From positions 115,449 to 163,846 of the IMG/VR virus record IMGVR_UViG_3300030085_002431: a stretch of DNA of 48,398 nt; one strand, given 5' to 3'. Below are positions 13,371 to 43,958 of this stretch, in pieces. The number at the start of each line of letters is the position of its first letter. Within the stretch, counting starts at the first letter, position 1. Source of the DNA: a virus. The position numbers and the translations under genes are program-made. The notes beneath the pieces are model-generated. The model did not search any database. It saw only the letters and a program-made list of their open reading frames with translations, and was not told the origin of the DNA.

Positions 13371-13565
13371 ATGGGTCATAAGTTTGAGAATTTCCCAGTA
13401 ATTCCTATCGCACAGTTCCAAGAAAACTTTGATGAATATATGGAGGATATTGAAGAAAATAAATCCTCATATATTATTGAAACAGAAGATGGGCAGAGAG
13501 CAGTAATGGTTCCTGCTGATGATGATATGATTAGAATGTATACTGACCATGAAGAAGGTTGCTAA
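13371..13565 (+). CDS. Phd/YefM-like antitoxin-fold protein (orphan)
   Basis: In this 64-residue protein, IPIAQFQENFDEYMEDIEEN followed by SYIIETEDGQRAVMVPADD matches the Phd/YefM layout: an N-terminal helix after a short strand, then paired strands of the type 'I.t..G.pvAvlv...'. Such proteins bind DNA as dimers and neutralise a partner toxin. No toxin gene is adjacent; the next gene is an oxygenase. It may be a transcription regulator or a phage decoy antitoxin against a host toxin. It has its own strong promoter. The similarity is by eye. Confidence 0.55.
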   Translation: MGHKFENFPVIPIAQFQENFDEYMEDIEENKSSYIIETEDGQRAVMVPADDDMIRMYTDHEEGC

Positions 13566-14268
13566 AGACCCATATATTTGGGAAGTTCCAAATTCATTGA
13601 CTGATGAGTTTTGTGATGATTTAATTAAAAAATTTGAAGAAGATCCAGGACACGATATGTATAAAGGTGTTACTGGTGAAGGATATAATCCAAATATAAA
13701 AGAAACTCTTGACCTGGCAATTTCTGCTAATAGTATTCACTGGAAAGAAGAAGATAGTTTTATTTGCAAAAAACTTACCAAATCTTCAAATGAATACTAT
13801 GCTCATATAAAGAAAACTATTGATAACTGTGTCATTTTTAATGATGTCATTAACTTAACTGACGATGGATATCATATTCAAAAGTATGTACCCAACACTG
13901 GATTTTATACTTGGCATAATGATTATCATTTTAATGATGAACTGGGAAGTAGAATCTTGACATTTATTTGGTATTTGAATACAGTAGATAATGGTGGTGA
14001 AACTGAGTTCACTAATGGGGTGAAAATTAAAGCAGAAAAAGGAAAACTTCTTATGTTCCCATCTACTTGGACATATAGTCATAGAGGGTGTATGCCATAT
14101 TCTAATGATAAGTATATTCTTACTGGGTGGTTATACAATGGATGGTATAAAAATATGGACAGTCAAGAGTACAAAAATGCTTGTGAAGAACACAGACAAC
14201 AAAAATTGAGTATTAAAGAACAAAATGAAAGCTCGATTAGCAATCTGGTGAATGCAGCAAACTCATAA
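13549..14268 (+). CDS. 2-oxoglutarate/Fe(II)-dependent oxygenase (prolyl 4-hydroxylase-like)
   Basis: The 239-residue protein has the double-stranded beta-helix ligands. WHNDY gives H123 and D125, SHRG gives distal H178, and K188 is placed to bind 2-oxoglutarate; GGETEF lies between, as in the P4H superfamily. Such enzymes hydroxylate protein, nucleic acid or small-molecule substrates; the target here is unknown. It overlaps the Phd-like gene by 17 bases. Its last 12 codons and stop fall within a tRNA gene, the TAA stop being in the anticodon loop. Confidence 0.85.
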   Translation: MKKVAKDPYIWEVPNSLTDEFCDDLIKKFEEDPGHDMYKGVTGEGYNPNIKETLDLAISANSIHWKEEDSFICKKLTKSSNEYYAHIKKTIDNCVIFNDVINLTDDGYHIQKYVPNTGFYTWHNDYHFNDELGSRILTFIWYLNTVDNGGETEFTNGVKIKAEKGKLLMFPSTWTYSHRGCMPYSNDKYILTGWLYNGWYKNMDSQEYKNACEEHRQQKLSIKEQNESSISNLVNAANS

Positions 14269-14303
14269 TTTGCCTAAGGAGAGTTCGATCCTCTCATCGA
14301 GCA
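14231..14303 (+). tRNA. tRNA with anticodon CAT (Met, or Ile2 if modified)
   Basis: The cloverleaf is perfect. Acceptor GCTCGAT (14231-14237) pairs with ATCGAGC (14296-14302), the D stem is GCA/TGC and the anticodon stem GCAAA/TTTGC has loop CTCATAA. The T stem is GAGAG/CTCTC with loop TTCGATC, and the discriminator is A. Elongator Met or lysidine-modified Ile identity cannot be decided by eye. The 5' half overlaps the end of the oxygenase gene. Confidence 0.9.
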
Positions 14304-14516
14304 TAGTCTTGGGATGACTTAAAAAGCACCCTGGTCGGGATGGGTTCTTACGACCCCTCGGGTTTCTTGCTTTTCCATAAGAGCAAGTGGTGGAGCTAAG
14401 TGCTATCGAATATACCCCGCAGGATAAGGGTTAAGCCTGCTGGTGCGGACATCTGCAAAGGTTTCTTGTTTTTCCTTACGTCTAAAAAAACAAGTGGCGA
14501 GCCTGCATACTAACGG
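14304..14516 (+). ncRNA. Structured non-coding region, candidate cis-regulatory RNA upstream of the epimerase
   Basis: No reading frame of note runs through these bases, yet they are rich in pairing. GGGTT/GACCC brackets a CTTAC loop near 14345. Two similar hairpin units follow: CTTGC...GCAAGTGG (about 14367-14392) and CTTGTTTTT...AAAAAACAAGTGG (about 14465-14496), each preceded by GGTTT. A GCAGG...CCTGC hairpin nested in CCGC...GCGG lies near 14420-14450. A terminator follows and then a GDP-mannose epimerase gene. The wcaG and manA RNA motifs are known structured leaders of sugar-nucleotide genes in cyanophages, so this may be one of them or a new relative. That assignment is inference from context. 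Confidence 0.55.
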
Positions 14517-14545
14517 AGAGGGGGTTTACAATGACCCTCTTTTTT
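14517..14545 (+). terminator. Terminator (or attenuator) before the epimerase gene
   Basis: AGAGGG (14517-14522) and CCCTCT (14535-14540) form a stem with a 12-base loop, followed by T residues. ATGACC in the loop lies 18 bases before TATACT (14555-14560), so the hairpin may also overlap a promoter for the glycan genes. Confidence 0.65.
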
Positions 14546-14588
14546 AGTATGATATATACTATGGTTTATTATAAGTCTCTGATTTAAC

Positions 14589-15641
14589 ATGGGTCAATAT
14601 GTAAAGAAGGCACTAGTCCTTGGTGCTGGTGGATTCATTGGAAGTCACATGGTCAAACGTCTCCGTTCCGAAGGTTATTGGGTACGGGGTGTGGACCTTA
14701 AACGTCCTGAGTTTTCTCCTACTGAAGCAAATGAATTTGTTCAGGGGGACCTACGTGATGTAGATTTTGTCAGTCGTGTACTTCAGTACAAGGGGGATCG
14801 TGGCAATTTCTATAATTCTGTTCCTTATAGGTACATTGGTGCCTTTGATGAAATCTATCAGTTTGCTGCTGACATGGGTGGTGCTGGTTTCGTCTTTACT
14901 GGTGAAAACGATGCTGACATTATGCATAATAGTGTTAGTATTAATTTGAATGTTCTTGAAGAGCAACGTAAATTTAATGAACAACTCGGTAAAAATACTA
15001 CTAAAATTTTCTACTCTGGTTCTGCTTGCATGTATCCTGAGCATAACCAACTTGATCCCAATAATCCTGATTGTCGGGAGTCTTCTGCTTATCCCGCAAA
15101 TCCAGACTCTGAGTATGGTTGGGAAAAGTTGTTTAGTGAACGTCTATATCTGGCTTACAATCGCAACCACGGGATTCCTGTACGTGTTGCTCGATATCAT
15201 AACATCTTTGGACCCGAAGGTACGTGGCAAGGAGGAAGAGAAAAAGCTCCTGCTGCGATTTGTAGAAAGGTGGCTTATCTTCCGTCTGAGGGAGGTGCTA
15301 TCGAAGTATGGGGAGACGGAGGACAGACAAGAAGTTTCCTCTTCATCGACGAGTGCATCGAAGCAACCAGAAGACTGATGGACTCTGACTTCCTTGGACC
15401 TGTGAACATTGGTTCTGAGGAGATGGTTACTATTAATGAACTTGTAGATACTGCTGCTAGGGTTGCAGGCAAAGAAGTTCTTAGGATGCATATCGATGGA
15501 CCTCTTGGTGTTCGTGGACGTAATTCCAACAACGACCTTGTTCGTGAGAAACTTGGTTGGGATTATTCTCAAACCTTAGAAGAAGGAATTCGTAAAACAT
15601 ACGAATGGATTTGTTCTCAAATTGATATTGTTGGAGAGTGA
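14589..15641 (+). CDS. GDP-mannose 3,5-epimerase-like NAD-dependent epimerase
   Basis: This 350-residue extended SDR has the NAD site GAGGFIG (G12-G18) and the catalytic YGWEK (Y176, K180). It closely follows plant GDP-mannose 3,5-epimerase: FAADMGGAGF, YSGSACMYPE, RYHNIFGPEGTW, QGGREKAPAAICRK (from G211), RSFLFIDECIEATRRL, NIGSEEMVTINEL and GVRGRNSNNDL. That enzyme turns GDP-D-mannose into GDP-L-galactose or GDP-L-gulose. Here it heads the glycan cluster, downstream of the structured leader. GDP-L-galactose is a 6-hydroxy analogue of GDP-L-fucose, so it could feed the fucosyltransferase-like genes that follow (inference). Confidence 0.88.
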   Translation: MGQYVKKALVLGAGGFIGSHMVKRLRSEGYWVRGVDLKRPEFSPTEANEFVQGDLRDVDFVSRVLQYKGDRGNFYNSVPYRYIGAFDEIYQFAADMGGAGFVFTGENDADIMHNSVSINLNVLEEQRKFNEQLGKNTTKIFYSGSACMYPEHNQLDPNNPDCRESSAYPANPDSEYGWEKLFSERLYLAYNRNHGIPVRVARYHNIFGPEGTWQGGREKAPAAICRKVAYLPSEGGAIEVWGDGGQTRSFLFIDECIEATRRLMDSDFLGPVNIGSEEMVTINELVDTAARVAGKEVLRMHIDGPLGVRGRNSNNDLVREKLGWDYSQTLEEGIRKTYEWICSQIDIVGE

Positions 15642-15643
15642 GT

Positions 15644-16306
15644 ATGAGTACATTAGTTTATGTTGGTGCCAATGAAGGAGTATCTTTATGGGGACTGATT
15701 GAGCATTTTGATGAGGTTCATGTATTTGAACCTGACCCAGAAATTTTTGCAAAGTTGAAAAAAAGATATCAGCAGTTTGAGTGGGTTACTCTTAACAATG
15801 CTGCATGTTCAGATAAAGATGGTGAGAGTTCTTTCTTTGTAACTAATAATAGAGTTGCTAGTAGTCTTGGTGCTGGTAGTGAAGAGTTTCAGGGGTTTGG
15901 TGATTACAATAAAGTAATGAAAGAGGTTACTGTAAAAACCATTAACCTTTCTAAATATCTTGAAGAAAAAGGAATCGAAGACATTGACCTTTATTATTCC
16001 GATTGTCAGGGAAGTGACCTTACTGTTCTGAATACTATTAAAGAATGGGTTGATGCTGGAAAGATTAAAGAAATTTTCACAGAAACACATAACAATGGAA
16101 GGTTGTTGTATGAAGGTTTAGATAATCAGTTTGAAGGTTTTGTGAAAATCTTATCTAAAAACTATGACTTCATTCATGCAAGTCTAGGATGTGAACAAGC
16201 AAGACTTGTGGGTGCTGAAGATATTCCAGATAGCAATCCAGAGTTTGATAGTTATTGGAGATTGAAAAATAATCCACCAGGCATCGGAGTTCATCTGAGA
16301 GCTTGA
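15644..16306 (+). CDS. FkbM-family methyltransferase
   Basis: The 220-residue SAM-dependent methyltransferase has VYVGANEG at the N-terminus (SAM site), VFEPDPE as motif II and DLYYSDCQGSDL as the FkbM acidic motif. FkbM enzymes O-methylate sugars and other small groups. I chose the ATG at 15644 with GGAG at 15633-15636; a GTG at 15638 overlapping the epimerase stop is possible. A second FkbM gene lies at 17970, suggesting two different methylation positions. Confidence 0.85.
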   Translation: MSTLVYVGANEGVSLWGLIEHFDEVHVFEPDPEIFAKLKKRYQQFEWVTLNNAACSDKDGESSFFVTNNRVASSLGAGSEEFQGFGDYNKVMKEVTVKTINLSKYLEEKGIEDIDLYYSDCQGSDLTVLNTIKEWVDAGKIKEIFTETHNNGRLLYEGLDNQFEGFVKILSKNYDFIHASLGCEQARLVGAEDIPDSNPEFDSYWRLKNNPPGIGVHLRA

Positions 16307-16334
16307 TATATGTACACGAAATTACTATTGTATA

Positions 16335-17192
16335 ATGAAAATTACAGTACTTGGTTCTAGTGGGCAAATTGGTGCCTACCTTACAGAATATCTTAGAAGA
16401 AAAGGTCACACTGTTCATGAATTTGATGTCGTAAATGGTCGGCACCATGATGCAACAGTTATTCCTAATGCAGAACTACATCGAGTCATTTACGATACTG
16501 ACTTTGTGTTCTTTCTTGCGTTTGATGTTGGTGGGTCACGATACCTTAAAAAGTATCAACATACCTTCAAGTTCATTGACAACAACACCAGGTTGATGAC
16601 ACAGGCATTTGGTCTGATTGAAAAGTATAAGAAACGGTTTGTGTTTGCTTCATCTCAGATGAGTAACATGTCTTACTCTCCATATGGTGTAATGAAACGT
16701 GTAGGAGAACTCTACACAATGGCACTTAAGGGACTTACTGTTAAGTTCTGGAATGTTTATGGTATTGAGAAAGACCATGACAAAGCACACGTTATTACTG
16801 ACTTCATCCGTAAGGGATTTGAAGAAGGTGATTTTGAAATGATGACTGACGGTACTGAAGAACGTCAGTTTCTCTATGCAGAGGACTGCTGTGAGGCATT
16901 AGAGACAGTGATGAATTCCTATACTGAATTTAAACCAGAAGACCCTCTCCACATTACTTCCTTTAGAACAACCACTATTAAGGAAGTTGCTGCAATTATC
17001 CAAGGACTCTTTTCTCGTATTGGAAAGACAGTTCATATTTCACCTGGACTTGCAAAGGATAGTGTTCAGTTAGACAAGAGAAACGAAGCAGATAATTACA
17101 TCATGGATTGGTGGTTGCCTCAGACCAGTATTCAAGATGGTATTAAGGCAGTGTTTGATGAGATGGCAAAGGAATATGACGTTCAAAATTAA
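16335..17192 (+). CDS. NAD-dependent sugar epimerase/dehydratase (extended SDR)
   Basis: This 285-residue protein has GSSGQIG at residues 8-14 (NAD binding) and SYSPYGVMKRVGE with the YxxxK catalytic pair. VKFWNVYGIEKD and EERQFLYAEDCCEAL are typical of the nucleotide-sugar epimerase family. The substrate cannot be told from sequence; modification of an NDP-hexose is likely. It overlaps the next gene by 17 bases. Confidence 0.8.
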   Translation: MKITVLGSSGQIGAYLTEYLRRKGHTVHEFDVVNGRHHDATVIPNAELHRVIYDTDFVFFLAFDVGGSRYLKKYQHTFKFIDNNTRLMTQAFGLIEKYKKRFVFASSQMSNMSYSPYGVMKRVGELYTMALKGLTVKFWNVYGIEKDHDKAHVITDFIRKGFEEGDFEMMTDGTEERQFLYAEDCCEALETVMNSYTEFKPEDPLHITSFRTTTIKEVAAIIQGLFSRIGKTVHISPGLAKDSVQLDKRNEADNYIMDWWLPQTSIQDGIKAVFDEMAKEYDVQN

Positions 17193-17973
17193 TTTATATT
17201 GTAACGATAGACTAGAACCATCATCTTCAGATAAGAACGAACAAAAGTTCACTGACTGGGCATATGATGGTTCTGGTGTGGTTGACTTTTATGTCAATCA
17301 GAGAGCACTAGAACCATTTAGTAAGGTCAATGAAAGACCAACTTACATTTGGTTGCTAGAATCAAAACAAATCATTCAACCTTACTATGATTGGATTCTT
17401 GCAAACTACGACTTTGTTGCTTCCCGAGTGGACGGTATTATTAGTTGCGATAAAGAACTTTGTGCAAAGTACCCAAAGTTCATGTACTCGGTAACCAATG
17501 CTGCTCCTTGGGTGGTTGACCGTCAAATCTTTGAGAAGACTAAACTTGTTTCGATGATTTCTTCTAATAAGAGAATGATTCCTGGACATTTGAAGAGACT
17601 TGAGTTTGTTGAAAAGTTCAAGAACCAAGTTGACCTGTATGGTCGTGGATTCCAAGAGATTGATTGTAAAGAAGATGGTTTGCGTGACTATATGTTCTCT
17701 ATTGCCGTAGAGAATGCTGTGTATGATACTTATTTCACAGAGAAACTAACAGACTGTTTTGCTACTGGTACTATTCCAATCTTCTATGGGTGCAGAGGAG
17801 TTACTGAATACTTTAATGAAGATGGAATTATCTTCTTGGATGATGACTTTGATGTATCTACATTGACTGAAGAACTTTATTATTCTAAAATGGATGCTAT
17901 AAAGGATAACTATCAACGTTCACTGGAGTTTCCAGTAGCAGAAGATTATATCTACACTAACTATTTCAAATGA
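17176..17973 (+). CDS. GT10-like (alpha-1,3/4-fucosyltransferase-type) glycosyltransferase
   Basis: The start at 17176 (MTFKINLYCNDR, 265 aa) is preferred; upstream codons read through the previous gene. The C-terminal half has the GT10 signature: KLVSMISSNKR, HLKRLEFVEKF, VDLYGRGF, KEDGLRDYMFSIAVEN and YFTEKLTDCFATGTIPIFYG. This family transfers L-fucose from GDP-fucose. It may use GDP-L-fucose from the host or the GDP-L-galactose expected from the epimerase at 14589. The stop overlaps the next start by four bases. Confidence 0.8.
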   Translation: MTFKINLYCNDRLEPSSSDKNEQKFTDWAYDGSGVVDFYVNQRALEPFSKVNERPTYIWLLESKQIIQPYYDWILANYDFVASRVDGIISCDKELCAKYPKFMYSVTNAAPWVVDRQIFEKTKLVSMISSNKRMIPGHLKRLEFVEKFKNQVDLYGRGFQEIDCKEDGLRDYMFSIAVENAVYDTYFTEKLTDCFATGTIPIFYGCRGVTEYFNEDGIIFLDDDFDVSTLTEELYYSKMDAIKDNYQRSLEFPVAEDYIYTNYFK

Positions 17974-18620
17974 TTTACAAATATTTTAAAGATAACAATG
18001 TCAAAGTTGAAGGTGCTATTCATGTAGGGGCACATCGTGGTGAAGAAATCTATGACTACGAGAAACTCGGAGCAAAGAAGGTTGTATGGATTGAACCTAA
18101 TCCAGAAGTATTTGAAGAATTAGTTTGTTTCCTTGAAAATGCGGAGACCAGTGTAGAATCCACTGGTTTTTGTGTTGCTGCTGGAGATAGTGATAATGAT
18201 GAGATTGATTTTCATGTATGTTATGGACCAGATGCTGGGTACATGGTTGGTAACAAGGGTTGTTCTTCTCTCTTGAAACCTTGTAGTGACCAAATGAAAG
18301 AGTGGCACCAGAAAACTATTCAAGTTGAAGTTGCAAAACTAGACAGTATTATTATAGATAATGAACTTTCATTTGAGGATTATCAAATTCTTGACATGGA
18401 TACTCAAGGTGCAGAATTGATGGTTCTTAAAGGTGCTGATGAAGTTTTGAATCATGTAAAATACATCACTACTGAAGCAACTTGGAATAATCCAGACTAT
18501 CAAGGTGGGGTTATGTTTGATGAACTAACTGAGTATCTCAATAGTAAAGGATTTACTCATGTAGAAACTTTTGAACATACTGAAGATTGGGGTGACGCAT
18601 TGTTTGTGAAGGAAGACTGA
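17970..18620 (+). CDS. FkbM-family methyltransferase
   Basis: The 216-residue protein has AIHVGAHRGEE (SAM loop), VVWIEPNPE, LDSIIIDNELSFEDYQILDMDTQGAELMVLKGA-type FkbM core (written here as key parts IDN, LDMDTQG and LKGA) and a TEAT C-terminal motif. It probably O-methylates a sugar of the glycan made by this cluster. It differs clearly from the 15644 copy, so it is not a recent duplicate. Coupled by overlap to both neighbours. Confidence 0.85.
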   Translation: MIYKYFKDNNVKVEGAIHVGAHRGEEIYDYEKLGAKKVVWIEPNPEVFEELVCFLENAETSVESTGFCVAAGDSDNDEIDFHVCYGPDAGYMVGNKGCSSLLKPCSDQMKEWHQKTIQVEVAKLDSIIIDNELSFEDYQILDMDTQGAELMVLKGADEVLNHVKYITTEATWNNPDYQGGVMFDELTEYLNSKGFTHVETFEHTEDWGDALFVKED

Positions 18621-19462
18621 TGGCAATTTCATATAATCAACTAGGTTCTAATGGTCGTCTGGGTAACCAGATGTTCCAGTATGCAGGTCTTCGTGGTATT
18701 GCTGCTAATCGTGGATTTGATTGGTTGATTCCACCACAGGATGCGGAGTCTACATGTAATTATGGTCTTTTTGATTGTTTCAGAATGCAGTCAGTTGAAG
18801 ATAAAAATATTGGATTCGGGCAAGGTCCCACACTTACTACAGGAAATTTTCATTTCGATGAAGAACTGTTTAATAGTTGTCCAGACAATACTAACTTAAA
18901 TGATTATCTTCAAACTGAAAAGTATTTTAGTGGAATAGAAAAAGACATTAGATGTGACTTTGCGTTTAAAGATGACATCTATACTGATTGTAAAGAAATT
19001 ATAGATGAAGTCGGTGACTGTATCTTTATTCATGTCCGTAGAGGAGATTATATTGCTACTCCAGACCACCACCCATGCCTAACTGAAGAATACTATTTGG
19101 AAGGTCTCTCTCACTTTGATAAAGATATTCCTGTTCTTGTTTTTTCTGATGACTTAGATTGGTGCAACCAACAAAAGTTTTTGGAAGGAGATAGGTTCTT
19201 GATTTCTGAAAATCATGTAACTTATTCTAATAAAATTAAACTTGGTGATGGTACATTTCAGCACTCACTTGTTCCTTATTGGGATATGTGCTTGATGACT
19301 ATGTGTAAAGGTGCTATAATTGCAAATAGTTCTATGTCCTGGTGGGGAGCATGGCTACAGAATGATGCTGGTAAAGTAGTAGCACCAAAGAGATGGTTAG
19401 GAAAAGCATTTTCTAACTATAACATGTCTGATGTTACCCCTGATCGTTGGGTAAAAATTTAA
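18620..19462 (+). CDS. GT11 alpha-1,2-fucosyltransferase-like protein (copy 1)
   Basis: The 280-residue protein has all three GT11 motifs: GRLGNQMFQYAGLRG at residues 11-25, IHVRRGDY near 137 (the GDP-binding HxRRxD signature) and IANSSMSWWGAWL near 235. GT11 enzymes transfer L-fucose in alpha-1,2 linkage from GDP-fucose. Two more copies occur at 21352 and 23840. The first base of its ATG is the last base of the previous stop. Confidence 0.9.
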   Translation: MAISYNQLGSNGRLGNQMFQYAGLRGIAANRGFDWLIPPQDAESTCNYGLFDCFRMQSVEDKNIGFGQGPTLTTGNFHFDEELFNSCPDNTNLNDYLQTEKYFSGIEKDIRCDFAFKDDIYTDCKEIIDEVGDCIFIHVRRGDYIATPDHHPCLTEEYYLEGLSHFDKDIPVLVFSDDLDWCNQQKFLEGDRFLISENHVTYSNKIKLGDGTFQHSLVPYWDMCLMTMCKGAIIANSSMSWWGAWLQNDAGKVVAPKRWLGKAFSNYNMSDVTPDRWVKI

Positions 19463-19476
19463 TTTATCAAAATAAA

Positions 19477-20403
19477 ATGGAAGTTATTTACGGGAGAAGC
19501 AGAGGTCAATATGATGACCCTGTTTTCAATTTAGGATTTGAAGCATACACAGATGTAGCAAGGGATTGCTATTTGTTTTTGTCTGACTTTCATAATAACA
19601 TTACTTCTTCTGCATTTAACGATAAAGAAAAGGTAGTCCTCACACTGGAAGAACCAAATTTTTGCCTCTCTAATAGGCAAGATTTGGGATGTGTTACTGC
19701 TCATACATACGCAGATAAAATCTTGACACTTTGCCCATATACAGCAGAGTGTTTTGATGAAAGAGAGCAATGCTGGTTTCCTATTGATGATAAATTTGAA
19801 CCAGAAAATAAGGAAAAGGAAATAGATTTCTTTTATATTGGACAAGCACCCACGTTCCCTGCTGGGTCTTTTAAGTCATACTTTGATAATGTTTTAGTTC
19901 CAAACTATAATACTCAACTTGGATTTTGGCATAATGCTGGAACAGACCACATAGGTAGGTTTAATGCAAGTGTCACTAATGTAAATTATGCAGGAAAACT
20001 TGAGTATTTTGCTAAGGCAAAAGCAACTCTAGTTCATGGTATTGATAACTTCTGGAGACATGGTAGTTCCCCTCAGCAATTTTTAGATTTTCCTAGATCA
20101 TTTTATAATAAGGCATTCACTCATCTTGAGGATGGTATTATTCCACAACTCAAGTCCAGAGTTTTTGAAGCAGCATTGTGTAAGACTCTTATGCTTTGTC
20201 AAAGAGACCCTTGGAATGTTATTGAATACTATTTTACTCCAGGAGAAGATTTCATATACATCGATAATGAAAACCACTTGAAGGAAGTAGCAGAGGATGT
20301 TATCAATAACTACGATAAGTATAATTTTATGGTAGAAAATGCATACAATAAGTTAAAGAATAACTACACCACTAAACACTTTGTTGATAAATTCTTAAAA
20401 TGA
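19477..20403 (+). CDS. Glycosyltransferase-like protein (GT1/CgeB-type C-terminus)
   Basis: In the 308-residue protein from ATG 19477, the C-terminal third carries KSRVFEAALCKTLMLCQR, FTPGEDFIYIDNENHLKEVA and NNYTTKHFVDKF. This is the pattern of the glycosyl transferase group 1_2 domain (CgeB-like), in which a retained glutamate-containing helix binds the sugar nucleotide. The N-terminal half is divergent. An upstream TTG at 19447 would overlap the GT11 gene. Acceptor and donor are unknown. Confidence 0.7.
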   Translation: MEVIYGRSRGQYDDPVFNLGFEAYTDVARDCYLFLSDFHNNITSSAFNDKEKVVLTLEEPNFCLSNRQDLGCVTAHTYADKILTLCPYTAECFDEREQCWFPIDDKFEPENKEKEIDFFYIGQAPTFPAGSFKSYFDNVLVPNYNTQLGFWHNAGTDHIGRFNASVTNVNYAGKLEYFAKAKATLVHGIDNFWRHGSSPQQFLDFPRSFYNKAFTHLEDGIIPQLKSRVFEAALCKTLMLCQRDPWNVIEYYFTPGEDFIYIDNENHLKEVAEDVINNYDKYNFMVENAYNKLKNNYTTKHFVDKFLK

Positions 20404-21320
20404 AAAAGTACATTGTAACTACTACTATTAATCCTCCAACAAAAGCAACTCATCTTTATGCAGATAAAGAGGATTGGACTCTTGTAGTTGTTGGTGATAC
20501 AAAGACACCACATGAAGAGTACGAGAAATTAAACTGTGTTTATCTTTCTCCTGAGCAACAAGAGGAGATGTGTCCAGAACTGTCTGATATTATTGGGTGG
20601 AAATCAATCCAAAGAAGAAACCTTGGATTTGTATATGCATATAATCAAGGTGCAGATATTGTTGCTACTGTTGATGATGATAATATTCCATATGATGATT
20701 GGGGTAAGAACGTTGTAGTTGGTCAAACCATTGAGTGTGACTTGTATGAACCAGATGAAAGGGTATTTGACCCCCTGTCCGTTACCAACACTCCAAATAT
20801 TTGGCATCGGGGATTCCCCATCGAATTGCTTCAGGACAGGCATAGGGTTGAATATAAAGGAAAGACTCAAAGAAAGGTTTTGGTTCAGGCAGACCTTTGG
20901 GATGGTGACCCTGACATTGATGCAATGGCAAGACTTACGATGAAACCAATCGTAAAATATGAAGTAGAAAAACCATATTGTTCTAATACTATTTCTCCAT
21001 TTAATAGTCAGAATACATTCCTTGCTAGAGAAGTTATTCCTTTTTATTCAGTATTTCCTCACGTTGGTCGTATGGATGATATTTGGGGTGCTTATGTACT
21101 TCAGAAGTATTTTCCCAATAGTGTGGTCTATAACAAAGCATCTGTTTACCAAGATAGAAATGTTCAAGATTTGGTGACCAATCTCGAAAAGGAAGTCATT
21201 GGTTATAGAAATACAATGAAGTTCATTGATAATCTAGAATATTGGAACTACACAGCTCTGTCACCTATTCCAGAAAGAACAGTTGACTACTGGAAAGCAT
21301 ATAGACAATGCTTTAAATAA
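20400..21320 (+). CDS. STELLO/DUF288-like glycosyltransferase
   Basis: This 306-residue protein begins KYIVTTTINPPTKATHLYA and continues DWTLVVVGDTKTP, VYLSPEQQ, RRNLGFVYAYNQGADIVATVDDDN. This order matches the DUF288/STELLO family, known from plant Golgi proteins with putative glycosyltransferase fold. VDDDN supplies the DxD metal site and QADLWDGDPDIDA a second acidic loop. The overlap with the upstream stop is four bases. Activity in phage is unknown; sugar transfer in the same glycan is likely. Confidence 0.75.
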   Translation: MKKYIVTTTINPPTKATHLYADKEDWTLVVVGDTKTPHEEYEKLNCVYLSPEQQEEMCPELSDIIGWKSIQRRNLGFVYAYNQGADIVATVDDDNIPYDDWGKNVVVGQTIECDLYEPDERVFDPLSVTNTPNIWHRGFPIELLQDRHRVEYKGKTQRKVLVQADLWDGDPDIDAMARLTMKPIVKYEVEKPYCSNTISPFNSQNTFLAREVIPFYSVFPHVGRMDDIWGAYVLQKYFPNSVVYNKASVYQDRNVQDLVTNLEKEVIGYRNTMKFIDNLEYWNYTALSPIPERTVDYWKAYRQCFK

Positions 21321-42676: not shown

Positions 42677-42711
42677 TTGACAACCGTACAAACCCATGGT
42701 ACTATAAATAA
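42677..42711 (+). promoter_or_regulatory. Overlapping sigma70 and late promoters of psbA
   Basis: TTGACA (42677-42682), a 17-base spacer and TACTAT (42700-42705) overlap TATAAATA (42704-42711). psbA could thus be read by host-type polymerase early and by the late phage form afterwards. Confidence 0.7.
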
Positions 42712-42875: not shown

Positions 42876-43958
42876 ATGGCAAACGCTACTCTTTCACGCC
42901 AACAAGGCGCATCCACTTGGGAAAACTTCTGCGAGTGGGTAACTTCAACCAATAACCGTCTCTATGTCGGTTGGTTCGGTGTGCTGATGATTCCAACTCT
43001 GTTGGCAGCCACTATCTGCTTCATCGTTGCATTCATTGCAGCACCCCCCGTCGATATTGACGGTATCCGTGAACCCGTTGCTGGTTCACTTATGTATGGT
43101 AACAACATCATCTCTGGTGCAGTTGTTCCTTCTTCAAACGCAATCGGACTCCACTTCTACCCTATTTGGGAAGCTGCTTCACTGGATGAATGGCTTTACA
43201 ACGGTGGTCCTTTCCAGTTGGTAATCTTCCACTTCCTGATTGGCATCTATGCTTACATGGGTCGTGAGTGGGAACTTTCCTATCGTCTCGGTATGCGTCC
43301 TTGGATTTGCGTTGCATACTCTGCACCTGTTGCAGCAGCATCCGCAGTCTTCCTGGTCTATCCTTTCGGTCAAGGTTCGTTCTCTGACGCAATGCCTCTC
43401 GGCATCTCTGGTACTTTCAACTACATGCTTGTCTTCCAAGCAGAGCACAACATTCTGATGCACCCCTTCCACATGCTGGGTGTCGCAGGTGTCTTCGGTG
43501 GTTCACTGTTCAGTGCAATGCACGGTTCACTGGTTACCTCCTCTCTGGTTCGTGAAACAACTGAATCTGAGTCCCAGAACTACGGTTACAAGTTCGGTCA
43601 AGAAGAAGAGACTTACAACATCGTTGCCGCACACGGTTACTTCGGTCGTCTTATCTTCCAATACGCATCCTTCAACAACTCCCGTTCACTGCACTTCTTC
43701 CTCGCAGCATGGCCTGTTGTTGGTATCTGGTTCACTGCTCTTGGTGTCAGCACCATGGCATTCAACCTGAACGGTTTCAACTTCAACCAGTCCATCCTTG
43801 ATGGTCAGGGTCGTGTCCTCAACACTTGGGCAGACGTTCTTAACCGTGCTGGTCTGGGTATGGAAGTCATGCACGAACGTAACGCACACAACTTCCCCCT
43901 CGACCTTGCTGCTGCTGAGTCCACTCCTGTGGCACTTACCGCACCTAGCATCGGTTGA
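42876..43958 (+). CDS. psbA: Photosystem II D1 protein
   Basis: The 360-residue D1 is full length. It has the five helices, the [22 protein letters not shown] lumenal block, [33 protein letters not shown] with the P680 and iron histidines, and NFPLDLA before the processed C-terminal tail ([14 protein letters not shown]). GREWEL carries Glu at the position equal to D1 residue 130, the form linked with high-light D1. Unlike most neighbours the gene prefers C-ending codons (TTC, AAC, TAC), suggesting acquisition from a host. It replaces light-damaged D1 during infection. Confidence 0.99.

Follow-up and report, generated by a model that had tools for sequence, protein, structure and literature searches.

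The stretch at 14304-14516 of the window (48,398 nucleotides, a portion of the 250,613-base virus record IMGVR_UViG_3300030085_002431) is a four-module RNA of the wcaG family from a T4-like cyanophage. Comparison with more than 100 relatives suggests, as far as sequence can tell, that the array closes the message upstream of it, instead of acting as the switch for the downstream sugar gene that it had been taken for, and we give an even chance to the reading in which wcaG arrays are pseudoknot RNAs of phages that form the 3′ ends of upstream transcripts and are not 5′ leader attenuators. Marine T4-like phages commonly carry wcaG RNAs, for which a role in regulating exopolysaccharide genes is restated in recent papers; a literature search found no published cyanophage transcriptome with wcaG coverage. 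Were the 3′-end reading true, the hunt for a sugar ligand would be misdirected, and the family would offer a model of the ways in which lytic phages set, protect or read past the ends of transcripts. Coordinates are those of the window, and all features given are on the plus strand.

The array adjoins a tRNA-Met (CAT) gene (14231-14303; ARAGORN; Rfam tRNA, 52.6 bits), as it does in near relatives, and the final 38 bases of a 2OG-Fe(II) oxygenase open reading frame (ORF; 13549-14268) lie within this gene. On the other side, an NAD-dependent epimerase/dehydratase (14589-15641; Pfam PF01370, 4.5e-35) is the first gene of a glycan cluster (14589-21320) holding two epimerases, two FkbM methyltransferases, GT10 and GT11 fucosyltransferase-like families and another glycosyltransferase. 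No ORF of at least 60 amino acids was found within 14304-14516, nor from tRNA-Met to the epimerase start codon at 14589. The wcaG covariance model (RF01761; gathering score, 42 bits) matched twice in tandem, at 14303-14401 (50.1 bits; modules M1 and M2) and 14411-14508 (43.0 bits; M3 and M4); four relatives matched too, and 14 control genomes gave 0 matches. Because both tandem matches exceed the gathering score, the RNA is real and the earlier note, which had proposed a structured RNA free of reading frames between a tRNA and the epimerase gene, guessed the family correctly in naming wcaG. Its other candidate, manA (RF01745), was rejected, since the covariance model had no match across the whole 250.6-kb virus record though it does detect manA in S-CREM1, the positive control. 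In S-CREM1 itself (L001, 4518-4732), the manA RNA occupies nearly the exact interval from tRNA-Leu to tRNA-Asn and, from its placement, also resembles an RNA released by tRNA processing more than a 5′ leader. The minimum-energy fold of the whole stretch was unremarkable (z = −1.32), so the case for a structured RNA is built on the covariance model and on covariation and not on folding energy.

Together the two matches form one four-module chain, whereas Rfam models two modules. Every module consists of a small hairpin or an H-type pseudoknot and, after it, a conserved UGG junction (UGGUCGGGA, UGGUGGAG, UGGUGCGGA and UGGCGAGCCUG), and all helix arms were verified by script. M1 (14305-14340) has the hairpin AGUC/GACU (14305-14308 with 14316-14319) and junction UGGUCGGGA; its hairpin type shows many compensatory stems among relatives. 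A loop-tail pairing GGG/CCC (14311-14313 with 14329-14331) is assigned tentatively: in M1-type hairpins of relatives, loop and tail letters correlate (C with G, T with A at one position) in a way that a simple antiparallel helix does not explain, and they possibly mark a tertiary contact. A spacer hairpin, GGGUU/GACCC (14341-14359; arms, 14342-14346 with 14352-14356), separates M1 from M2 (14360-14395), which has the hairpin CUUGCU/AGCAAG (14366-14371 with 14382-14387) and junction UGGUGGAG; all six pairs of the homologous hairpin covary across 69 relatives. M3 (14419-14449) has the hairpin GCAGG/CCUGC (14419-14423 with 14436-14440) and junction UGGUGCGGA, which is overlapped by a small hairpin, UGCGG/CUGCA (14444-14457), in place of the usual GGG..CCC hairpin; it is invariant in eight near relatives and hence gives no covariation signal either way. 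M4 (14458-14505) is an H-type pseudoknot of AAGG/CCUU (14458-14461 with 14474-14477) and CUUGUU/AACAAG (14465-14470 with 14489-14494), with junction UGGCGAGCCUG. M2 and M4 share the GUUUCUUG..CAAG hairpin type. The sequence elements singled out in the earlier note were all recovered by script: the tandem GGTTTCTTG...CAAGTGG units recur at 14361-14390 and 14460-14497, and its GGGTT/GACCC hairpin and nested GCAGG/CCTGC element are the spacer and M3 stems. Among eight near-identical relatives compared (the window included), stem changes appeared in L220, where the M3 stem becomes GUUGG/CCAAC through two compensatory changes, and in L246, where the spacer hairpin reads AGUCC/GGACU instead (by eye).

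The array shares its junctions, hairpins, kind of host virus and type of downstream gene with the published wcaG RNA (RF01761; Weinberg et al. 2010, PMC2864571), and it differs in having four modules and in a position that resembles a transcript 3′ end, with a promoter downstream, not a 5′ leader. The wcaG junctions UGGUGCGGA and GUGGCGAG are exact in the second copy; the first has UGGUCGGGA and GUGGUGGAG, variants common in relatives. A similar array of four modules occurs in S-CREM1, where the Rfam annotation covers just the final two. Since modules hold fixed places in an ordered array in S-CREM1 and others, tandem duplication of the entire wcaG unit is not favoured. Across relatives, junction order is largely fixed and hairpin types are swapped among positions. 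Variable module number, interchangeable hairpins, conserved junctions and ends set by a terminator or tRNA would suit a trans-acting or decoy RNA, a freed pseudoknot array that titrates a toxin or an RNA-binding protein of host or phage; however, no binding partner is known, and the largely fixed junction order suits one assembly more than independent repeats, and we regard such a role as very unlikely. Type III antitoxin-like repeats, considered on account of the pseudoknots, were set aside: no toxin gene was seen, and the modules are ordered and non-identical.

Relatives were gathered from cultured phages, through an epimerase search and through three scans (two by pattern, one by exact sequence), which gave 206 arrays, of which 133 non-redundant arrays with flanks were retained. 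Cultured phages with wcaG include S-PM2, Bellamy, S-SM2 and S-CREM1. Terminators, promoters and ORFs were called by simple scripts (some upstream "genes" are weak), and the metagenomic contigs in the sample are uneven and related. Covariation, which the earlier note had named as a check on its own proposal, was strong: in the 69 relatives having two canonical modules, 97.8% of cells were paired, and the number of cells with both partners changed was 233, compared with 55.8 for shuffles and no more than 26 for slid versions. The last module is an H-type pseudoknot because its loop pairs with the four bases preceding its hairpin; in the same 69 relatives 97.5% of the cells of this helix pair, and three of its four pairs show double-sided changes. 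Under a looser count, in which the offset could vary and pairing is therefore favoured, all four pairs formed in 110 of 122 arrays. Helix types include CTGG/CCAG, CCTG/CAGG, CAGG/CCTG, CCAG/CTGG, CTAG/CTAG and CGAG/CTCG. This covarying helix, present in the last module here and in the wider family, is absent from the scored Rfam wcaG model, and the main text of the 2010 paper (PMC2864571) names no pseudoknot for wcaG.

An intrinsic terminator (14517-14545; stem AGAGGG/CCCUCU, then TTTTTT; −15.6 kcal/mol, z = −3.7) stands immediately after the array; the terminator-like stem that the earlier note placed at the close of the region thus exists but lies just past the end given there. Inside the terminator is a promoter-like site (14525-14553; 10/12 matches), with a −35 TTTACA (14525-14530), 17 nucleotides (nt) and a −10 TATGAT (14548-14553), so that the predicted −35 box sits in the terminator loop and the −10 box after the U-tract; TTTACA is invariant in the eight near relatives. 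Intrinsic terminators followed 104 of the 133 arrays, nearly always 2 to 18 nt away, compared with 5.4% of random and 4.7% of upstream windows. A sigma-70-like site (a TTG/TTT −35-like sequence in the loop and, 16 to 18 nt on, a −10 with at least 5/6 matches) was embedded in 83 of these 104 terminators, with a 17-nt spacer in 78; TTGCAT, TTGACA and TTTACA were the commonest loop sequences. Overall, sigma-70-like sites lay just downstream of 96/133 arrays and just upstream of 9/131 (control, 17.5%). Because the control windows, here and for the terminators, are mostly coding, any intergenic site should show a degree of enrichment. The composite motif known from T4-like phages as PeSL (Comeau et al. 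2014, cited in PMC4503421) likewise joins, as titles and citations describe it, a terminator stem-loop to an early-type promoter; by that definition 14517-14553 and 83 of the 104 relatives with a terminator carry a PeSL-type composite, here directly after the array.

Distinct regions upstream of epimerase homologues (n = 72), fetched regardless of wcaG, separate the two elements. wcaG was present at 35 of them, and these had a terminator in 34 cases and a −10 box in all 35, at 22 to 56 nt before the start codon; the 37 loci without wcaG had a terminator in 6 and a −10 box in 33, at a similar distance. The Fisher P value for the wcaG-terminator association across the 72 loci (3e-13) is optimistic because the loci are related. 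The promoter-like site goes with the epimerase gene, and the terminator goes with wcaG.

The array would thus be transcribed as the 3′ end of an upstream unit (the 2OG oxygenase and tRNA-Met) whose transcript would stop at the terminator at 14517-14545, and the epimerase would be expressed from its own early-type promoter, the −35 box of which lies in the terminator loop. Since transcripts from the epimerase promoter would exclude the array, the array would be a 3′-terminal or intercistronic RNA. Most simply, it may be a structured 3′ end protecting the upstream transcript, or may be cut out of it; in this window, a cut at the tRNA 3′ end would leave it a clean 5′ end. PhotoRC-II (RF01717; 42741-42837, 77 bits), another cyanophage structured RNA labelled cis-regulatory in the same window, has a sigma-70-like promoter upstream (42677-42705), the psbA start at 42877 and no terminator-promoter between; as its promoter precedes the element, it shows the geometry expected of a true 5′ leader.

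An attenuator in an epimerase leader, by comparison, does not fit an arrangement in which wcaG and the terminator would end the upstream message and the epimerase would restart from its own promoter. Such a leader, a ligand-binding riboswitch acting on the downstream gene by attenuation, was the family proposal of 2010, which marks wcaG as a possible riboswitch (PMC2864571), and the earlier note likewise envisaged a riboswitch attenuating the glycan cluster. It would account for the conserved complex structure, the terminator directly after the array and the enrichment of sugar-nucleotide enzymes among downstream genes. The array does lie upstream of an exopolysaccharide-type gene, the position of a leader, yet the gene's own promoter-like site lies between them, and promoter-like sites are scarce just upstream of arrays. 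Nor did contiguous pairing that would exclude the terminator show a clear excess over swapped arms: the longest pairing of terminator arms with their own arrays was 7.22, against 7.12 (standard deviation, 0.06) with arms swapped, and the arms vary freely (80 distinct in 99), so an attenuator working through alternative pairing was rejected. tRNA genes also follow arrays. On this evidence the riboswitch reading, including the version in the earlier note, appears rather unlikely.

Among the 29 arrays for which no terminator was scored, about half had a tRNA gene next, usually tRNA-Gly with a GC-rich hairpin between; in several the tRNA gene began about 25 to 35 nt past the last junction, which suits the 3′-end reading. 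Several others had a start codon within about 20 nt, as in L207, L332 and L334, where the array stands 15 to 20 nt before the start codon, and these cases count against that reading.

Linkage to glycan genes is real: in the set not fetched via the epimerase, 38 of 85 downstream genes fell in one sugar-nucleotide cluster, and the largest upstream cluster was 19 of 89. This excess and the presence of wcaG at 35 of the 72 epimerase loci favour a cis link to the downstream gene; the linkage may be a cis effect, with processive antitermination its most plausible form, or may reflect co-moving cassettes. An antiterminator of the Bacillus subtilis EAR or phage HK022 put type would have the nascent array bind RNA polymerase, so that late transcripts pass the terminator into glycan genes or tRNAs. 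The intercistronic location ahead of a terminator, the excess of glycan genes downstream and the co-occurrence of wcaG and terminator all suit it, and alternative pairing is not needed. EAR (the epsC motif) is likewise a structured intergenic RNA in an exopolysaccharide operon and acts on several terminators (PMC7858274), but it comes from different organisms, no sequence relation to the array was found and Rfam reported no EAR-family match here. Several arrays lack a following terminator, and the downstream genes have a promoter-like site of their own, which also counts against antitermination; weighing these points, we consider it unlikely, though possible. Taking 3′-end formation and an action on RNA polymerase together, the chances seem to us evenly balanced that wcaG is, instead of a metabolite riboswitch, a phage family of modular arrays of pseudoknots whose role is to close upstream transcripts (or to act on RNA polymerase at that point) and which are coupled to an overlapping terminator-promoter, in which case the cis-regulatory leader label would be wrong and the Rfam model would cover only the last two modules.

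Upstream flanks are in keeping with a 3′ position in part of the sample. The upstream stop codon lay −25 to +16 nt from the match start in 42 of the 119 arrays with a same-strand upstream ORF, and many other stop codons lay about one or two modules farther off. CTAAATA, which we take to be the cyanophage late promoter motif, occurred 226 to 259 nt upstream in 10 of 39 stop-adjacent arrays, before a small phage ORF ending at the array (control, 1.1% of random 130-nt windows). In this window no CTAAATA was found near the array, a point against the 3′-end reading, and a search for the array's own upstream promoter identified none. Gene orientation was uninformative as a test of 5′ versus 3′ position because nearly all neighbouring genes share one strand.

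When 84,980 genomes of bacteria and archaea were scanned with a strict pattern, which misses divergent copies, this window's array among them, three places were found, two of them wcaG by Rfam, and both confirmed matches are on marine metagenome-assembled contigs. With at least one of the two on a cyanophage contig, the scan counts against a riboswitch, and an origin in host genomes was rejected. These wcaG contigs, L345 and L347, are filed under a Rhodobacteraceae and a Euryarchaeota metagenome-assembled genome. L347 shows the same ORF-wcaG-terminator-epimerase arrangement as in phages; it is clearly a cyanophage contig, and its filing is probably a binning error.
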